A DNA stretch of 64,000 nt from Mediterranea sp. (in: CFB group bacteria). GTDB lineage: Bacteria; Bacteroidota; Bacteroidia; Bacteroidales; Bacteroidaceae. The stretch spans positions 1-64,000 of the forward strand of contig JAISIZ010000062.1 in assembly GCA_031261785.1 (NCBI GenBank). The letters are read 5' to 3'. The position numbers and the translations under genes were made by a program. This document shows positions 1 to 63,535 of the stretch, piece by piece (position 1 is the stretch's first letter; each line of letters begins with the position of its first letter). The notes below the pieces were generated by a model. That model saw only the letters and a list, made by a program, of their open reading frames with translations, was not told the origin of the DNA and did no database searches.

Positions 1-182
1 AAAAGCCCGGGCTTTTTTCTCCATTCCCGAAATCTGATTACAAAAGCTCGGGCTTTTTTCTCCATTCCCGAAATCTGATTACAAAAGCCCGGGCTTTTTT
101 CTCCATTCCCGAAATCTGATTACAAAAGCTCGGACTTTTTTCTTCATTCCCGAAATCTGATTACAAAAGCTCGGGCTTTTCG
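1..182. repeat. 41-bp palindromic tandem array A
   Basis: Five units begin at 1, 42, 83, 124 and 165, an exact 41-bp period, and the array continues left of the window. Each unit is a palindromic core (AAAAGCCCGGGCTTTT, or variants with the centre TCGG) followed by a T-run and a conserved spacer containing CATTCCCGAAATCTGATTAC. Core variation is mostly at the central bases; the AAAAG/CTTTT arms are kept. All complete units here carry AAATCTGATT. The same unit recurs near 41.4 kb and 61.8 kb. The hairpin plus T-run resembles an intrinsic terminator on the + strand, but the positions of the three arrays do not fit a pure terminator role. Confidence 0.95.
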
Positions 183-428
183 TTCCTCGCGAATCCGAGG
201 TTGAAATTTGTCGACCTCGCGAAATATCCATGTGGCGCGTGAGACCTTCGCGGATCAGCGAAGATTCGCCCACGACGAAGACTAATGATAGGGTCGGAAC
301 TCTCCTTCTTCCCGCATACATACAGGACACAAAGTCGCGACTTTCCCGGCTCGCACCACCCTACGCCACCCTATTTTAGGCCATAAGTAATTGATTATCA
401 ATGCACGCTATGTGATAGCGAAGAAAAG
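181..428. repeat. right flanking module and putative end of array A element
   Basis: Positions 181-263 match the right flank of array C (about 62053-62140), including GGTTGAAATTTGTCG and CTCGCGGATCAGCGAAG-like words. Further right, 383-428 contains ATTGATTATCAATG and, read as reverse complement, aligns with the left side of the array C region at 61604-61650. No credible gene is seen in 183-498; this stretch appears to be repeat-element DNA. Confidence 0.75.
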
Positions 429-14829: not shown

Positions 14830-14939
14830 GTCCCACGGGCATGGGACAACTGTCCCAAGCCCGTGGGACAAACGTCCCATGCCCGCGGGAAAAACGTCCC
14901 AAGCCCGTGGGACAACTGTTTCAACGGCATGGGACGCGC
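14830..14939. repeat. five-unit 22-bp palindromic tandem array
   Basis: Units start at 14830, 14852, 14874, 14896 and 14918, exactly 22 bp apart. Each has the form GTCCCA-n6-TGGGAC followed by AACT or AAAC; the last two are GTCCCAAGCCCGTGGGAC and a diverged GTTTCAACGGCATGGGAC. Changes in one arm are often matched by the other. It lies between divergent mutA and the esterase at 15193. The rest of the 600-bp gap (14593-14829 and 14940-15151) shows no gene. Confidence 0.93.
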
Positions 14940-41215: not shown

Positions 41216-41247
41216 CAAAGATACGCTTATTTTGGCTCATGCGCAAT
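41216..41247 (-). promoter_or_regulatory. promoter of cmk-ispH
   Basis: On the minus strand a perfect -7 box TATCTTTG (41223-41216) is preceded by ATTG (41247-41244) with a 20-bp spacer. It lies 31 bp upstream of the ATG. The -33 region overlaps one copy of the 14-bp repeat CATGCGCAATAGTC. Confidence 0.7.
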
Positions 41248-41795
41248 AGTCGGTGAATGAGCGGATCAATGACTAACGCCAACTCCTTGCTTCTGGGCGT
41301 GGCAAGTATAGTCTGCAAACAGGTCTGCGAGTACCTATCGGAGACGCGAAAGCTTCATGCAAACCCGTATGAGACGAGAAGCCCGGGCTTTTTTCTCCAT
41401 TCCCGAAATGTGATTACAAAAGCCCGAACTTTTTTCTCCATTCCCGAAATGTGATTACAAAAGCCCGAGCTTTTTTCTCCATTCCCGAAATGTGATTACA
41501 AAAGCTCGGGCTTTTTTCTTCATTCCCGAAATGTGATTACAAAAGCCCTGGCTTTTTTCTCCATTCCCGAAATGTGATTACAAAAGCCCGGGCTTCCAGC
41601 TTTTCGCAAATCTGCGATTGACGTTTTTCGGTCTCGCAAAACCTCCATGCGGCATGCGTATAGCTTTCTTGGCTCCACGGACTATTGCGCATGGGCTGGA
41701 TTGAAGGCGTAGGCGATCTGCTATTCTACTTCTATCGTTGCCGTGTAATATTTGGTTGGTCATGAGGCTGATTCCTCCATGGACTATTGCGCATG
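41238..41795. repeat. three 14-bp repeats bracketing array B
   Basis: GACTATTGCGCATG occurs at 41680-41693 and 41782-41795, and its exact reverse complement at 41238-41251. The two plus-strand copies also share CTCCA upstream. The outer two copies bracket the whole array B region in inverted orientation. Between 41664 and 41923 no gene is seen. Confidence 0.8.
41377..41597. repeat. 41-bp palindromic tandem array B
   Basis: Six units begin at 41377, 41418, 41459, 41500, 41541 and 41582 (exact 41-bp period); the first begins GAGAAGCCCGGGCTT and the last is the core only. All five complete spacers here read AAATGTGATT, whereas array A has AAATCTGATT. The left flank (41334-41376, with GACGCGAAAGCTTCATGC) matches that of array C, and the right flank (to about 41663, with AAACCTCCATGCGG) matches arrays A and C. 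The array lies between divergent cmk-ispH and tonB. Confidence 0.95.
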
Positions 41796-58999: not shown

Positions 59000-61468
59000 A
59001 TGGCTAAATCATCCCCTATCCTCTTCGGCTGCCTCGCGGCTGCCGGACTGTTCCTGCTCACCGCCTGCGGGCAGAGCGGCGGCCCCTCGTTCACGCAGAC
59101 CAACGACCTGGTGCTGAACGACTCCAATTATTTCGAGACGCGAGGGCTGAACTACCTCGTGTTCAACAATCCCTACGACGCCCTGTTCGATGACTCCAAG
59201 GTGAGCGCCGTGGAGCTGATACACCACGGCATACGTACCGCCACCAACGGCGACGTGCGCCTCAACCCCGCTCCGGGACAATGGGACAAGCTGCCCAAGA
59301 CCGTGGATCGCACGGTGGATAAGGAGGCCAAACGCATCGACGTGAAGCAGGAGTATCCAGATTATGGTTTCGCCTACACCCTGAGCGGTGAGGCGCGCGA
59401 CGGGGGATTCTACCTCAGCGTCTCTACCGACAAGGCGTTGCCCGACTCGCTCGTGGGCGTGGCCGGGCTGAACCTCGAGTTTTTCCCGCCCGTATTCTTC
59501 GAGCACGCCTACCTCATGGACGGACGTCCCGGACTCTTCCCTACTTCGGCAGCCGACGACATGACCGTCATCAACGACATCGTGGAGCCAATGCCCATGG
59601 CCACCGGACGCGTGATAGAGATCGCTCCCGACGACCCCATGAAGCACGTCACCATCCGCGCCACCCTTGAGGGCACCGAGCTGATGCTATACGACGGACG
59701 CGACAAGCAGCAGAACGGCACATTCACCGTGCGCACCCTGCTTCCCGCAGGACGGACGGGCAAGATCGCCGAATGGTTCATACAGGCCGAAACCGACACC
59801 CGCTGGCTGCGCAAGCCCGTGGTGAGCTACTCGCAGGTAGGCTACCATCCCGCGCAAGAGAAGATGGCCGTGGTGGAACTCGACAAAGCCGATCCCTCTG
59901 TGGACGACATGGCGATCCACCGTGTCAACGCCGATGGAACGCTCACCACCATCCTCGCCGGCAAGCCCGCCGAATGGGGCATGTACACCCGTTACCACTA
60001 TGTGCGGTTCGACTTCTCGTCCATCAAGGAACCAGGCATCTACAAGCTCTCCTACGGGGAGCGGTACACCGGTCCGTTCCCCATCGGCGAGGAAGTGTAC
60101 GCCCGCGCCTGGCATCCCACGCTCGACGTGTTCATGCCCGTGCAGATGGATCACATGTTCGTGCGCGAGGCATACCGCGTGTGGCACGGGGCCGCCCACC
60201 TCGACGATGCCCTCCAGGCACCGCTCAACCGTCGTCATTGGGATGGATGGAGACAAGGCCCCACCACAGGCAATAAGTACAAACCCGGGCAGCACATCCC
60301 CGGGCTGGCCGTAGGCGGATGGTTCGACGCCGGCGACTTCGACATACAGACACCCTCGCAACAGCAGACCGTACAGTCGCTCGTCGACGTCTGGGAGGAG
60401 TTCAAGCCCGAGCGCGACCAGACCACCGTGGACCAGCGGAAGCTCTACACCGAAATTCACCTGCCCGACGGCAAGCCCGACCTGCTGCAACAGATCGAGC
60501 ATGGCACGCTGCAGCTCGCCGCCCAAGTCAAAGCCATCGGATACGCCATCCCCGGCATCAACGAATCGCACCTCTACCAATACCGCCACCTCGGCGACGC
60601 CGTGACCAAGACCGACGGCATCATTGGTAACGAGGACGATCGCTGGGCCTTCACCGACCGTAGCGCCTACGTCAACTACGGCACCGCCACCTCGCTGGCC
60701 GCCGCCGCCCGTGCCCTCAAGGAGATGAACCCCGAGCTGTCACGAGAGATTCTCCAGCTCGCCGAATACATCTGGACCGACGAGCACGCCCACGTCTACG
60801 ATACCGAGGGACAGACCTTCTTCGCCCGTTCGGCCAACCCCACCGCCGCCGAATGTCGAGCCGCTTTCGAACTTTGGCGCTCCACCGACAAGGAGGAGTA
60901 CAAGACGCGTGTCGACGAGCTTGCGCCCAGCCTGTTCGAGCGCGGCCAATGGAATATAGGTTTCGTAGCCCGTTTGCTTCCCTACATGGACGACGCCTTC
61001 AAGGCCAAGGCCAAGCCTTTGGTGGAGCGATACGTGCAAAGCCTCCGCGACGTGGAGACCACCAACCCCTACGGCATCACCATCACTCTGCGTAGCTGGG
61101 CGGGCAACGGACAGATCATCCGCACCGGCATCACCAACTACATGCTGCGCAAATCGTTCCCCGACCTTATCGACACCGAGTTGATCTACCGCGGGCTGAA
61201 CTATATCTACGGCTGCCATCCCGACCACAACCGTTCGTTCGTGTCGGGCGTGGGTGCCCAACCCAAGAAGATTGCCTATGGCAACAACCGGGCCGACCAT
61301 TCGTTCATTCCCGGCGGCATCGTGCCAGGCGTACGCCTGCTCAATCCCGACCTGCCCGAGAATCGCGACGACTACCAGTTCCATTGGAGCGAGAATGAGT
61401 ACGTCATCCCACTGGCACCCGACTACATCTACTTAGTGCATGCCGTACAGCGGCTACTCGGCGAGTAG
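59000..61468 (+). CDS. GH9 family glycosidase with N-terminal CelD_N domain, lipoprotein
   Basis: This is an 822-aa protein. The lipobox (LFLLTACGQS) lies behind the ATG at 59000; an ATG at 58961 would begin inside the inverted repeat, so it is rejected. The CelD_N immunoglobulin-like domain precedes the (alpha/alpha)6 barrel. GGWFDAGDFDIQT holds the catalytic-base aspartates near residue 445, GCHPDHNRSFVSGVG the conserved histidine loop and WSENEY, near the C-terminus, the acid glutamate. GH9 members cleave cellulose, xyloglucan or mixed-linkage glucans. In this operon it may act on the glucan associated with arabinoxylan. Confidence 0.92.
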   Translation: MAKSSPILFGCLAAAGLFLLTACGQSGGPSFTQTNDLVLNDSNYFETRGLNYLVFNNPYDALFDDSKVSAVELIHHGIRTATNGDVRLNPAPGQWDKLPKTVDRTVDKEAKRIDVKQEYPDYGFAYTLSGEARDGGFYLSVSTDKALPDSLVGVAGLNLEFFPPVFFEHAYLMDGRPGLFPTSAADDMTVINDIVEPMPMATGRVIEIAPDDPMKHVTIRATLEGTELMLYDGRDKQQNGTFTVRTLLPAGRTGKIAEWFIQAETDTRWLRKPVVSYSQVGYHPAQEKMAVVELDKADPSVDDMAIHRVNADGTLTTILAGKPAEWGMYTRYHYVRFDFSSIKEPGIYKLSYGERYTGPFPIGEEVYARAWHPTLDVFMPVQMDHMFVREAYRVWHGAAHLDDALQAPLNRRHWDGWRQGPTTGNKYKPGQHIPGLAVGGWFDAGDFDIQTPSQQQTVQSLVDVWEEFKPERDQTTVDQRKLYTEIHLPDGKPDLLQQIEHGTLQLAAQVKAIGYAIPGINESHLYQYRHLGDAVTKTDGIIGNEDDRWAFTDRSAYVNYGTATSLAAAARALKEMNPELSREILQLAEYIWTDEHAHVYDTEGQTFFARSANPTAAECRAAFELWRSTDKEEYKTRVDELAPSLFERGQWNIGFVARLLPYMDDAFKAKAKPLVERYVQSLRDVETTNPYGITITLRSWAGNGQIIRTGITNYMLRKSFPDLIDTELIYRGLNYIYGCHPDHNRSFVSGVGAQPKKIAYGNNRADHSFIPGGIVPGVRLLNPDLPENRDDYQFHWSENEYVIPLAPDYIYLVHAVQRLLGE

Positions 61469-61486
61469 ACAAGGGAGAATGGGTTT

Positions 61487-61566
61487 CTTTTAGACACGGA
61501 TTTCACGGATTACCCCGTCTCGATAGAGAACGAGACGGGGTAATCAGCGAGATCCGTGTCTGAAAG
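61487..61566. repeat. inverted repeat with CACGGATT motif after GH9
   Basis: The arms 61487-61522 and 61531-61566 pair over about 36 bp (AGACACGGATTTCACGGATT on the left, CGAGATCCGTGTCTGAAAG on the right) with an 8-bp loop. It begins 18 bp after the GH9 stop and probably ends the operon transcript. Confidence 0.88.
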
Positions 61567-61603
61567 ACACTCTCTCCGGAATCCTCCCTTCTTAACTTCA
61601 TCA

Positions 61604-61650
61604 CTGTTCTTCGTCATCATATAGCGCACATTGATAATCAATCATTTCCT
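61604..61650. repeat. inverted copy of the array A end segment
   Basis: This segment aligns with the reverse complement of 383-428. Both contain TTCTTCG, ATCA, ATAGCG and CATTGATAATCAAT in the same order. It may mark the outer end of the repeat-bearing element. The remaining part of 61469-62191 is repeat DNA only. Confidence 0.7.
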
Positions 61651-61752
61651 GACTTCGTCAATGTGCCACCCATTTTTCTCACCCCTCGAAGAGGCGTCAT
61701 GTAAGGGCCTATCTCGAAGACGCGAAAGCTTTATGCAAATCCGCATGAGACC

Positions 61753-62055
61753 AAAAGCCCGGGCTTTTTTCTCCATTCCCGAAATCTGATTACAAAAGCC
61801 CGGGCTTTTTTCTCCATTCCCGAAATCTGATTACAAAAGCCCGGGCTTTTTTTTCCATTCCCGAAATCTGATTACAAAAGCTCGGGCTTTTTTTCCCATT
61901 CCCGAAATCTGATTACAAAAGCTCGGGCTTTTTTTTCCATTCCCGAAATCTGATTACAAAAGCTCGGGCTTTTTTTTCCATTCCCGAAATCTGATTACAA
62001 AAGCTCGGACTTTTTTCTCCATCCTCGAAATGTGATTACAAAAGCCCGGGCTTCT
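61753..62055. repeat. 41-bp palindromic tandem array C
   Basis: Eight units begin at 61753, 61794, 61835, 61876, 61917, 61958, 61999 and 62040, all exactly 41 bp apart. Spacers read AAATCTGATT except the last complete one (AAATGTGATT). Four consecutive units have a longer T-run in which TTTTCC replaces TCTCC (or TTCCC in one), with no change of length. The left flank 61708-61752 (GACGCGAAAGCTTTATGC) matches array B. The array lies between convergent GH9 and rseP. Confidence 0.95.
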
Positions 62056-62140
62056 CGCGCCTCGCAAATCCCTGGTTGAAATTTGTCGGCCTCGCGAAAC
62101 CTCCATGCGGCGCGTGAGAACCTCGCGGATCAGCGAAGAA
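62053..62140. repeat. right flanking module of array C
   Basis: This module matches 181-263 beside array A (shared GGTTGAAATTTGTCG and CTCGCGGATCAGCGAAG) and, more weakly, 41596-41663 beside array B. The region between it and the rseP end (62141-62191) shows no gene. Confidence 0.8.
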
Positions 62141-62191
62141 AATCTTCCCGCATGTTCCTGTGCGGTGCGCTTCCCCAACAACAAGGGAGCG

Positions 62192-63535
62192 TTAGAAGAA
62201 GAATCGCTTCACGTCGTTGAAATTGGCCAGGATGAGCAACCCGAAGAGGAGAACCATGCCCGTGATCTGCGCATATTCCATGAACTTATCGCTCGGCTTA
62301 CGGCGGGTCACCATCTCGTAGATAAGGAAGAGTACGTGACCACCGTCGAGCGCGGGGATGGGCAGGATATTCATGAAGGCGAGGATAATAGAGAGCAAAG
62401 CCGTCATCATCCAGAAGCTGTACCAATCCCACATCGGCGGGAAGATGCTGCCTATGGTACCAAAACCACCCAACATTTTAAATCCACCGTCGCGGAAAAG
62501 ATACTTCAAGTCGCTCACGTAGTTCACTAATTTGTCTACTCCAAAGGCGATGCCTACGGGGAACGATTCGAAGAAACCGTAATAGGTATCGACCTGCGGC
62601 TGCTCGAATTGCCGCATATAGACGCCCAGCTTGAAATCGGGATCCACGCTCATGCTCAGCGTATCCGTCACCCCGGCACGCACGTAGGTCAGCTCCACAC
62701 GTCGCAAGTTCAGGCTGTCTTGCGGACGTTCTTTCGCCTCCATTGCCCGAGCGTTCATCGCGAAGGTGAAGCCGGGAGAGGATATAGCTTGCCCGTCCAA
62801 GGCGACTATGCTGTCACCGGGAAGCAAGCCGGCCTTCATGGCTGGCGAATTGGCCATGAGCGAATCGATGACGAAAGGTTGGCTGAAGCTGAAGAATCCC
62901 GCCTTGGATTTCTCCAAGCGGTAAATCAGGTCGTCGGGAATAGGGATGGAGACGATGGCCTCGCCTCGACGCACGGTCACCTCGCGGGCGTTGAGCACCT
63001 GGCGGCTCATCTTGTCGCTCCGCAGGAAAGGCACGCCATCGGCAGAAAGGAGCACGTCTCCGTCGCGGAAGCCCAATTCTTCGGCGGCAGGCGCGAACTC
63101 CATACCGTAGGTGGCCTCGGGGACGTTGATATAATGATCGCCCCAAGTGAAGATCACCATGGAGTAGATAAGGAGCGCCAACAGGAAGTTGAACAGCACG
63201 CCACCCGTCATGATGAGCAGGCGTTGCCAAGCCGGCTTGGCCCTGAACTCCCATGGCTTCATGGGTTGTTTCATCTGCTCGGTATCCATCGACTCGTCGA
63301 TCATGCCCGAGATCTTGACGTATCCGCCCAGCGGCAGCCATCCCACGGCGTATTCGGTCTCGCTCTTCTTCGGCTTGAACTTGAACAGGGTGAACCAGGG
63401 GTCGAAGAATAGGCAGAACTTCTCTACACGCACCTTGAACAGGCGGGCAAAAAGGAAATGTCCGCCCTCGTGGATGATGACGAGCAGCGACAGGCTCACG
63501 ATCAGTTGCAGGGCACGAATCAAAAATGTATCCAT
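62192..63535 (-). CDS. rseP: RseP family site-2 membrane metalloprotease
   Basis: This 447-aa inner-membrane protease cuts transmembrane substrates; in other bacteria it releases envelope-stress sigma factors by cleaving anti-sigma factors. The zinc motif HEGGH at residues 22-26 is in the first membrane helix, the third ligand is in PIPALDGGHVLF near 395, and a PDZ region lies at about 200-285 (GLLPGDSIVALDG), with perhaps a first PDZ at 120-190. C-terminal membrane helices lie at about 370-440. It is 29 bp downstream of dxr in the same direction, a common pairing in Bacteroidota. Confidence 0.94.
   Translation of the reverse strand: MDTFLIRALQLIVSLSLLVIIHEGGHFLFARLFKVRVEKFCLFFDPWFTLFKFKPKKSETEYAVGWLPLGGYVKISGMIDESMDTEQMKQPMKPWEFRAKPAWQRLLIMTGGVLFNFLLALLIYSMVIFTWGDHYINVPEATYGMEFAPAAEELGFRDGDVLLSADGVPFLRSDKMSRQVLNAREVTVRRGEAIVSIPIPDDLIYRLEKSKAGFFSFSQPFVIDSLMANSPAMKAGLLPGDSIVALDGQAISSPGFTFAMNARAMEAKERPQDSLNLRRVELTYVRAGVTDTLSMSVDPDFKLGVYMRQFEQPQVDTYYGFFESFPVGIAFGVDKLVNYVSDLKYLFRDGGFKMLGGFGTIGSIFPPMWDWYSFWMMTALLSIILAFMNILPIPALDGGHVLFLIYEMVTRRKPSDKFMEYAQITGMVLLFGLLILANFNDVKRFFF

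Follow-up and report, generated by a model that had tools for sequence, protein, structure and literature searches.

The stretch of DNA analysed here (in the following, the window) is 64,000 nucleotides long and corresponds to bases 1-64000 of contig C8 in a draft genome of Mediterranea, a genus of the Bacteroidaceae; the draft comprises 3.77 Mb in 131 contigs and is 94.4% complete. TRF finds three tandem arrays with a period of 41 bp in the window, all on the plus strand: array A with 4.4 units (1-180), array B with 5.3 units (41379-41595) and array C with 7.4 units (about 61752-62053, delimited below as 61753-62053). Base 1 of the contig falls inside array A, so that the left part of copy A lies outside the window. 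Array A is situated upstream of a gene with an ETF domain, array B between a divergent cytidylate kinase/LytB gene and a TonB-type gene, and array C between a convergent glycosyl hydrolase 9 gene and an M50 peptidase gene. No open reading frame of at least 100 amino acids lies wholly within 1-442 or 61647-62139, the reading frames that start at 428 and 62105 overlapping the edges of these regions. A scan of the window with Rfam at the gathering thresholds gave one tRNA and nothing else. Around 61611-61661 there are weak promoter-like sites (2 found, 0.6 expected).

Three further repeats were seen in the window. Just left of C, 3' of the glycosyl hydrolase gene, lies a 40-bp inverted repeat (88%) with a loop of 8 bases (61483-61570), which is perhaps a transcription terminator. 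Around array B there are inverted and direct copies of a small repeat, CCAYGGACTATTGCGCATG (41235-41260, 41673-41696 and 41773-41795); its exact pattern has no match in the 188 loci that were fetched. Finally, a 22-bp tandem repeat of 3.5 copies with the palindrome TGGGACAAATGTCCCA is found at 14842-14919 and is, by eye, unlike the 41-bp unit.

The 41-bp unit, AAAAGCYCGGGCTTTTTTCTCCATTCCCGAAATSTGATTAC, contains the 16-bp palindrome AAAAGCCCGGGCTTTT. In its own genome there are 146 exact matches to the pattern and 229 matches to a similar pattern with up to three mismatches. The own-genome loci that were fetched contain 65 groups of units, of which 59 were kept after short single-unit matches and one duplicated locus had been dropped; 35 lie wholly within their locus and have 1-7 units each. 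Units differ on average by 3.03 positions within and 3.44 between arrays, which does not support a strong homogenisation within arrays, and end-specific units common to all arrays are likewise unsupported. Many contigs of the assembly end inside 41-bp arrays, which probably explains part of its fragmentation. Apart from its own genome, we found the unit at one locus of one congener. Exact matches were found in one genome_contigs record only (JAISIX010000088.1, a Mediterranea MAG), a collection outside which the own genome may lie.

The palindrome, present in each unit, could mean that the arrays are kept for a function, as rows of bidirectional transcription stops or of cruciform sites between genes. 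On both strands, the first two units of C can form a stem of 16 bp (z = -4.26 and -3.61), and none of 200 shuffled sequences was as good; furthermore, C sits between convergent genes. On the other hand, a terminator scan of 61400-62250, which admits only loops of 3-8 bases, found no terminator (mean of shuffled sequences 1.1). The three arrays are placed inconsistently, since the neighbours of B are divergent and A precedes the ETF-domain gene. We consider such a function improbable as the reason for the arrays.

The sequences beside the arrays are repeated as well. For the flank at 181-428 we found at least 44 matches in the own genome, itself included, and for 61590-61770 at least 47, again itself included; these are lower bounds, as 40 of 65 and 40 of 107 candidates, respectively, were scored. 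When the flank matches are lined up outward, 33 left ends start with TCCTGACTTCGTCAATGCGCCACCC or a variant and 17 right ends, the truncated one beside C included, end with GTGATGAAGTCAGGA or a variant, and outside these termini the sequences vary from copy to copy. Shared ends followed by copy-specific sequence define a terminal inverted repeat of about 14 bp, TCCTGACTTCRTCA. Its exact consensus is present in 18 of the 33 left and 9 of the 17 right ends; as a 14-mer it occurs 33 times in the own genome, the reversed control not at all. This alignment places the left terminus of C at 61647 and the right terminus of A at 442.

The initial annotation had proposed a MITE-like non-coding element of several hundred bp, bounded by terminal inverted repeats and holding the 41-bp array inside. 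This proposal agrees with what we find, and the element is present in many copies. Its choice of termini does not. It had taken an inverted pair of about 45 bp, one member right of A and the other left of C, for the terminal repeats. The pair exists (390-437 against 61595-61642, 87.5% over 48 bp, E = 1.3e-11 in BLAST), but the alignment of the ends rules it out, the real terminal repeat being the 14 bp at 61647-61660 and 429-442. Its member to the left of C is part of an extra, truncated right end of the IS1634 5'-end type, which lies on the minus strand at 61595-61646, directly beyond C's left end and in inverted orientation. According to the BLAST table, copy C is the sole one of the 33 left ends examined that has a right end inverted against it.

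The three copies in the window are preserved to different degrees. In copy A, the right arm and right end extend over 181-442 on the plus strand (including 383-428) and end with the right terminal inverted repeat at 429-442, which here reads TGATGAAGTCCGGA. Copy C has a left end and left arm (61647-61752), the array (61753-62053) and a right-arm fragment that lacks the right terminus (62054-62139). Array B is bordered by a left-arm remnant that has lost its terminus (41338-41378) and by a diverged right-arm remnant (41604-41666), all on the plus strand. The homologies between flanks that had been noticed earlier hold: BLAST finds the right flank of A again at 62060-62139 (89% over 80 positions) and pairs the left flanks of B and C at 41338-41384 (87%). 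The diverged right-flank copy at B has no BLAST match to the flank of A, and its local alignment scores 51 compared with 25 for the best of 200 shuffled sequences.

A search of the genome with the flanks, as had been suggested, yielded five array-bearing elements that are complete within one locus (508, 508, 538, 540 and 589 bp), three of them with target duplications, as well as two composite elements, L023 with 786 bp and L012 with 188 bp. The own genome also contains an element of 96 bp without array (L061), in which the right end follows directly on a 25-bp left end, the two meeting at a common CGCCACCC; this motif is present on the inner side of both ends. No empty site was found at C: ten relatives have listed matches to each of the two genes that border this array, and in every one of them the two matches sit on separate contigs.

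Several copies adjoin other sequences. An unrelated insertion that starts with ATAGAGATC lies within a MITE left end on contig C127 (L071, 1666-1797) and occurs also on contig C129 (L078). We had taken this contig end of C127 for a possible autonomous partner, represented by its 5' end, and rejected it: C129 has the same sequence without the start TCCTGACTTCGTCA, which indicates an unrelated insertion into a MITE end. By eye, the left flank at the C127 insertion is similar to the one on the right of the copy on contig C33 (L020), which suggests rearrangement between copies. A second dispersed repeat, the first 215 bases of L040 (contig C97) on the reverse strand, adjoins several MITE copies; parts of L015, L017, L028, L035, L046 and L067 match it at 93-100%. 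Furthermore, a stretch like CACAGATTACACAGATTCGCACAGATT recurs beside MITE ends, in the left flanks of L026, L039, L043 and L059, and is perhaps another dispersed repeat.

The termini lead to a family of insertion sequences. The 14-mer is found in 23 of 149 genomes of the genus, the own genome included, and the reversed control gave single matches in four. Three complete insertion sequences of relatives have the same termini (L103, L104 and L105, with 1672, 1690 and 1674 bp), that is, inverted ends with one transposase gene between them, encoding proteins of 525, 514 and 518 amino acids. All three transposases match the NCBIfam family IS1634 (NF033559) with 372.6, 370.9 and 388.6 bits, where the cut-off is 100 bits, and also Pfam DDE_Tnp_1. 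The termini, read as CCTGACTT, fit the IS1634-family end pattern C-----YT given in the excerpted text of PMC2266710.

Both ends of the MITE can be assigned to parts of these insertion sequences. The MITE left-end consensus shares 24, 25 and 21 of 25 bases with the 3' ends of L103, L104 and L105, and the left end of copy C shares 23, 24 and 22; in the window, 61647-61671 corresponds to the 3' end of IS1634-family elements. The right end of copy A, from 342-352 to 442, aligns over 91-101 bp with the 5' ends, upstream of the transposase, of four congener insertion sequences, with 71-80% identical columns (74/104 for L104, 74/92 for L160, 76/104 for L172 and 73/94 for L166); the inner limit varies with the insertion sequence compared. 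This part of the right arm, at most 342-442 on the plus strand, contains a repeated motif, CGCACCACCCTACGCCACCC, at 352-371. The middle of the element, that is, left arm, 41-bp array and right arm, has no counterpart that we recognised in the insertion sequences compared. The initial annotation had counted a wide occurrence of the segment ATTGATTATCAATG without arrays as evidence against its reading. The segment does occur without arrays, in the IS1634-family 5' ends of relatives and in the 96-bp element of the own genome; since it is part of an IS1634-family 5' end, its occurrence names the parent and strengthens the MITE reading.

The genus also contains shortened elements, in a series of sizes. 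Insertion sequences of 1.67-1.72 kb are followed by internally deleted elements of 570 and 775 bp that still encode parts of the transposase (L106 in G084 and L111 in G023), and these by minimal elements of 96-106 bp in which both ends are nearly joined (L107, L108 and L167). Internal deletion of an insertion sequence is the simple explanation for the MITE ends. A search with the whole element in 158 genomes of the genus, with at most four candidates scored per genome, gave matches in 11: the own genome, one congener (G099) through array and ends, and nine through pieces of the ends only. At L111 3274-3313 (contig C10 of G023) there is a 40-bp near-palindrome that resembles two 5' ends of insertion sequences placed head to head.

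The transposase with the same ends for which the initial annotation advised to look is thus present in congeners (L103, L104 and L105). In the draft genome that bears the window we found no intact IS1634 transposase and no match to the L104 protein. Its one trace of IS1634 is a fragment of 137 amino acids on contig C53, which we rejected as the parent since it is below the family cut-off and lacks these termini.

To find direct repeats, each left flank was compared with each right flank, anchored at the termini, which gives 561 pairs; of the six same-locus rows, the one combining C's left end with A's right end was left out. Six pairs score at least 19 and the next best scores 13. The six are L066/L040 (56/53 bp), L011 (35/34 bp), L050/L010 (30 bp), L027 with window copy A (14 bp, exact), L024 (18 bp) and L043 (12 bp). 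Accordingly, three of the five complete copies have a flanking repeat of 12-35 bp (L011, L024 and L043), and in the other two (L016 and L020) the anchored comparison found none. For copy A, the direct repeat is AATAGTGTATATTC at 443-456 on the plus strand, which also abuts a left end (L027) at the end of contig C51. It is probably the target duplication of copy A, split over two contigs, and the two contig ends may belong to one copy.

In the pairs L066/L040 and L050/L010, the assembly assigns the two ends to different copies, so that a later rearrangement or a misassembly must be assumed. A single copy split by contig ends is rejected for L066/L040, because L040 lies inside its contig and has a truncated left arm beside another dispersed repeat.

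The insertion sequences themselves have much longer repeats. In the one-contig chromosome of a congener (G067) there are six identical copies (L173-L178) of one 1.70-kb IS1634-family element, and all six are abutted by perfect direct repeats of 40, 53, 90, 276, 439 and 515 bp with the terminal A and T counted (38, 51, 88, 274, 437 and 513 bp without them). So counted, the repeats start with A and end with T in all six. The same A at the start and T at the end is seen by eye on both sides in five of the six MITE pairs, the left side of L011 being unclear. No repeat that is both perfect and two-sided was seen in the seven complete copies checked outside G067: in L104 (275 bp, with a gap of N) and L179 (85 bp) the repeat abuts one end, in L184 it abuts neither, and L103, L105, L180 and L181 have no repeat at all. 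None of the seven short derivatives checked has a perfect two-sided repeat either. According to the excerpted text of PMC2266710, the direct repeats of IS1549 and IS1634 are long and variable (8-514 bp), and the lengths of the flanking repeats of the MITE thus fit IS1634.

One could also suppose that the 41-bp array itself is the dispersed unit, spread by recombination or gene conversion, and that the flanks are neighbouring DNA that hitchhiked with it. There are indeed arrays without termini, namely B and several arrays at contig edges, and the two flank duplications that link different copies make recombination between copies, or between other repeats, probable. Nevertheless, all 33 left and 17 right ends have sharp termini that resemble one another, and such termini occur without any array in the 96-bp element of the own genome and in whole insertion sequences of relatives. 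For a spread of this kind we therefore see very little chance.

In our opinion, the arrays are very probably the inside of a MITE that has the ends of an IS1634-family insertion sequence. According to the alignments, this MITE of about 510-590 bp combines 25 bp from the 3' end of an insertion sequence at its left with about 91-101 bp from a 5' end at its right, the array and its arms lying between them. A DDE transposase of the IS1634 type would bind the TCCTGACTTCRTCA ends, perhaps together with the inner CGCCACCC motif, and move the element in trans. The two ends would attach to opposite strands of the target, at points separated by a variable distance, and gap repair would then produce direct repeats with lengths from 12 bp up to tens of bp. 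As a passenger, the array would probably travel along, its length shifting by slippage or recombination. The transposase may since have been lost from this lineage. Because the draft genome contains no intact matching transposase, most copies are probably immobile and decaying relics; some have been rearranged since their insertion.

A more speculative extension of the IS1634-MITE reading concerns the origin of the array. Each end might be joined to the target without regard to the other, at an A of its own strand, with 14 to more than 500 bp between the two joining points, so that host DNA would be copied with each insertion. The 41-bp array could then perhaps have started from a duplication of this type. 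If an insertion had hit an older copy and subsequently disappeared, two tandem copies with a length of some tens of bp would have stayed behind, and slippage would have expanded them. We think this rather unlikely, but if it were true, the minisatellite would be a by-product of the unusual transposition chemistry of IS1634-type elements. Apart from this, a 2008 paper states that a mechanistic model for the long duplications of IS1634 elements had yet to be put forward (PMC2266710), and the flanking repeats of the MITE, but most of all the six identical insertion sequences of G067 with their perfect repeats of 40-515 bp, provide clean material for studying these unexplained duplications.

The closest counterparts in architecture come from Porphyromonas gingivalis. 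As described in the excerpted text of PMC4596501, BrickBuilt is a MITE with a 23-nt minisatellite and MITE464/MITEPgRS a MITE with 41-nt tandem repeats, both with IS5-type termini. BrickBuilt, like the element described here, is multi-copy and gene-less, consists of a leader, a minisatellite and a tail, has small terminal inverted repeats and includes many truncated copies. It differs in its 23-nt unit, its IS5-type termini and its short flanking duplications (CT, GAAA and a run of A, in three of four copies), whereas we find a 41-bp unit, IS1634-type termini and, in complete copies, repeats of 12-35 bp. MITE464/PgRS shares tandem repeats of 41 nt within a MITE, a likeness in unit length, and differs in having IS5-type rather than IS1634-type termini. 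That our element is itself such a Porphyromonas-type minisatellite MITE (BrickBuilt or MITE464/PgRS), moved by IS5-family transposases, is suggested by the common arrangement of leader, array, tail and small inverted ends and by the 41-nt repeat of PgRS, yet it is extremely improbable, since the termini there are of the IS5 type (e.g. GAGACTGTTGCA, Table 2 of PMC4596501, compared by eye) and here are TCCTGACTTCRTCA with IS1634 relatives, and since the unit, with up to three mismatches, is found only in its own genome among 393 genomes of the order (206 genera) and is absent from the other 392, G099 not being among the genomes listed.

With the IS1634 family, as represented by IS1549 and IS1634 in the excerpted text of PMC2266710, the element shares the C-----YT ends and the long and variable direct repeats, and the DDE transposases of its relatives have the family's length of about 500 amino acids. 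It differs from the family in that it has an array and no transposase. In the literature searched, mostly at the level of listings, we recognised no MITE derived from IS1634. To our knowledge, minisatellite-carrying MITEs were so far known solely from Porphyromonas, with IS5-type ends. Since the minisatellite is here combined with IS1634-type ends, the combination of minisatellite and MITE seems to have arisen more than once in the Bacteroidales.
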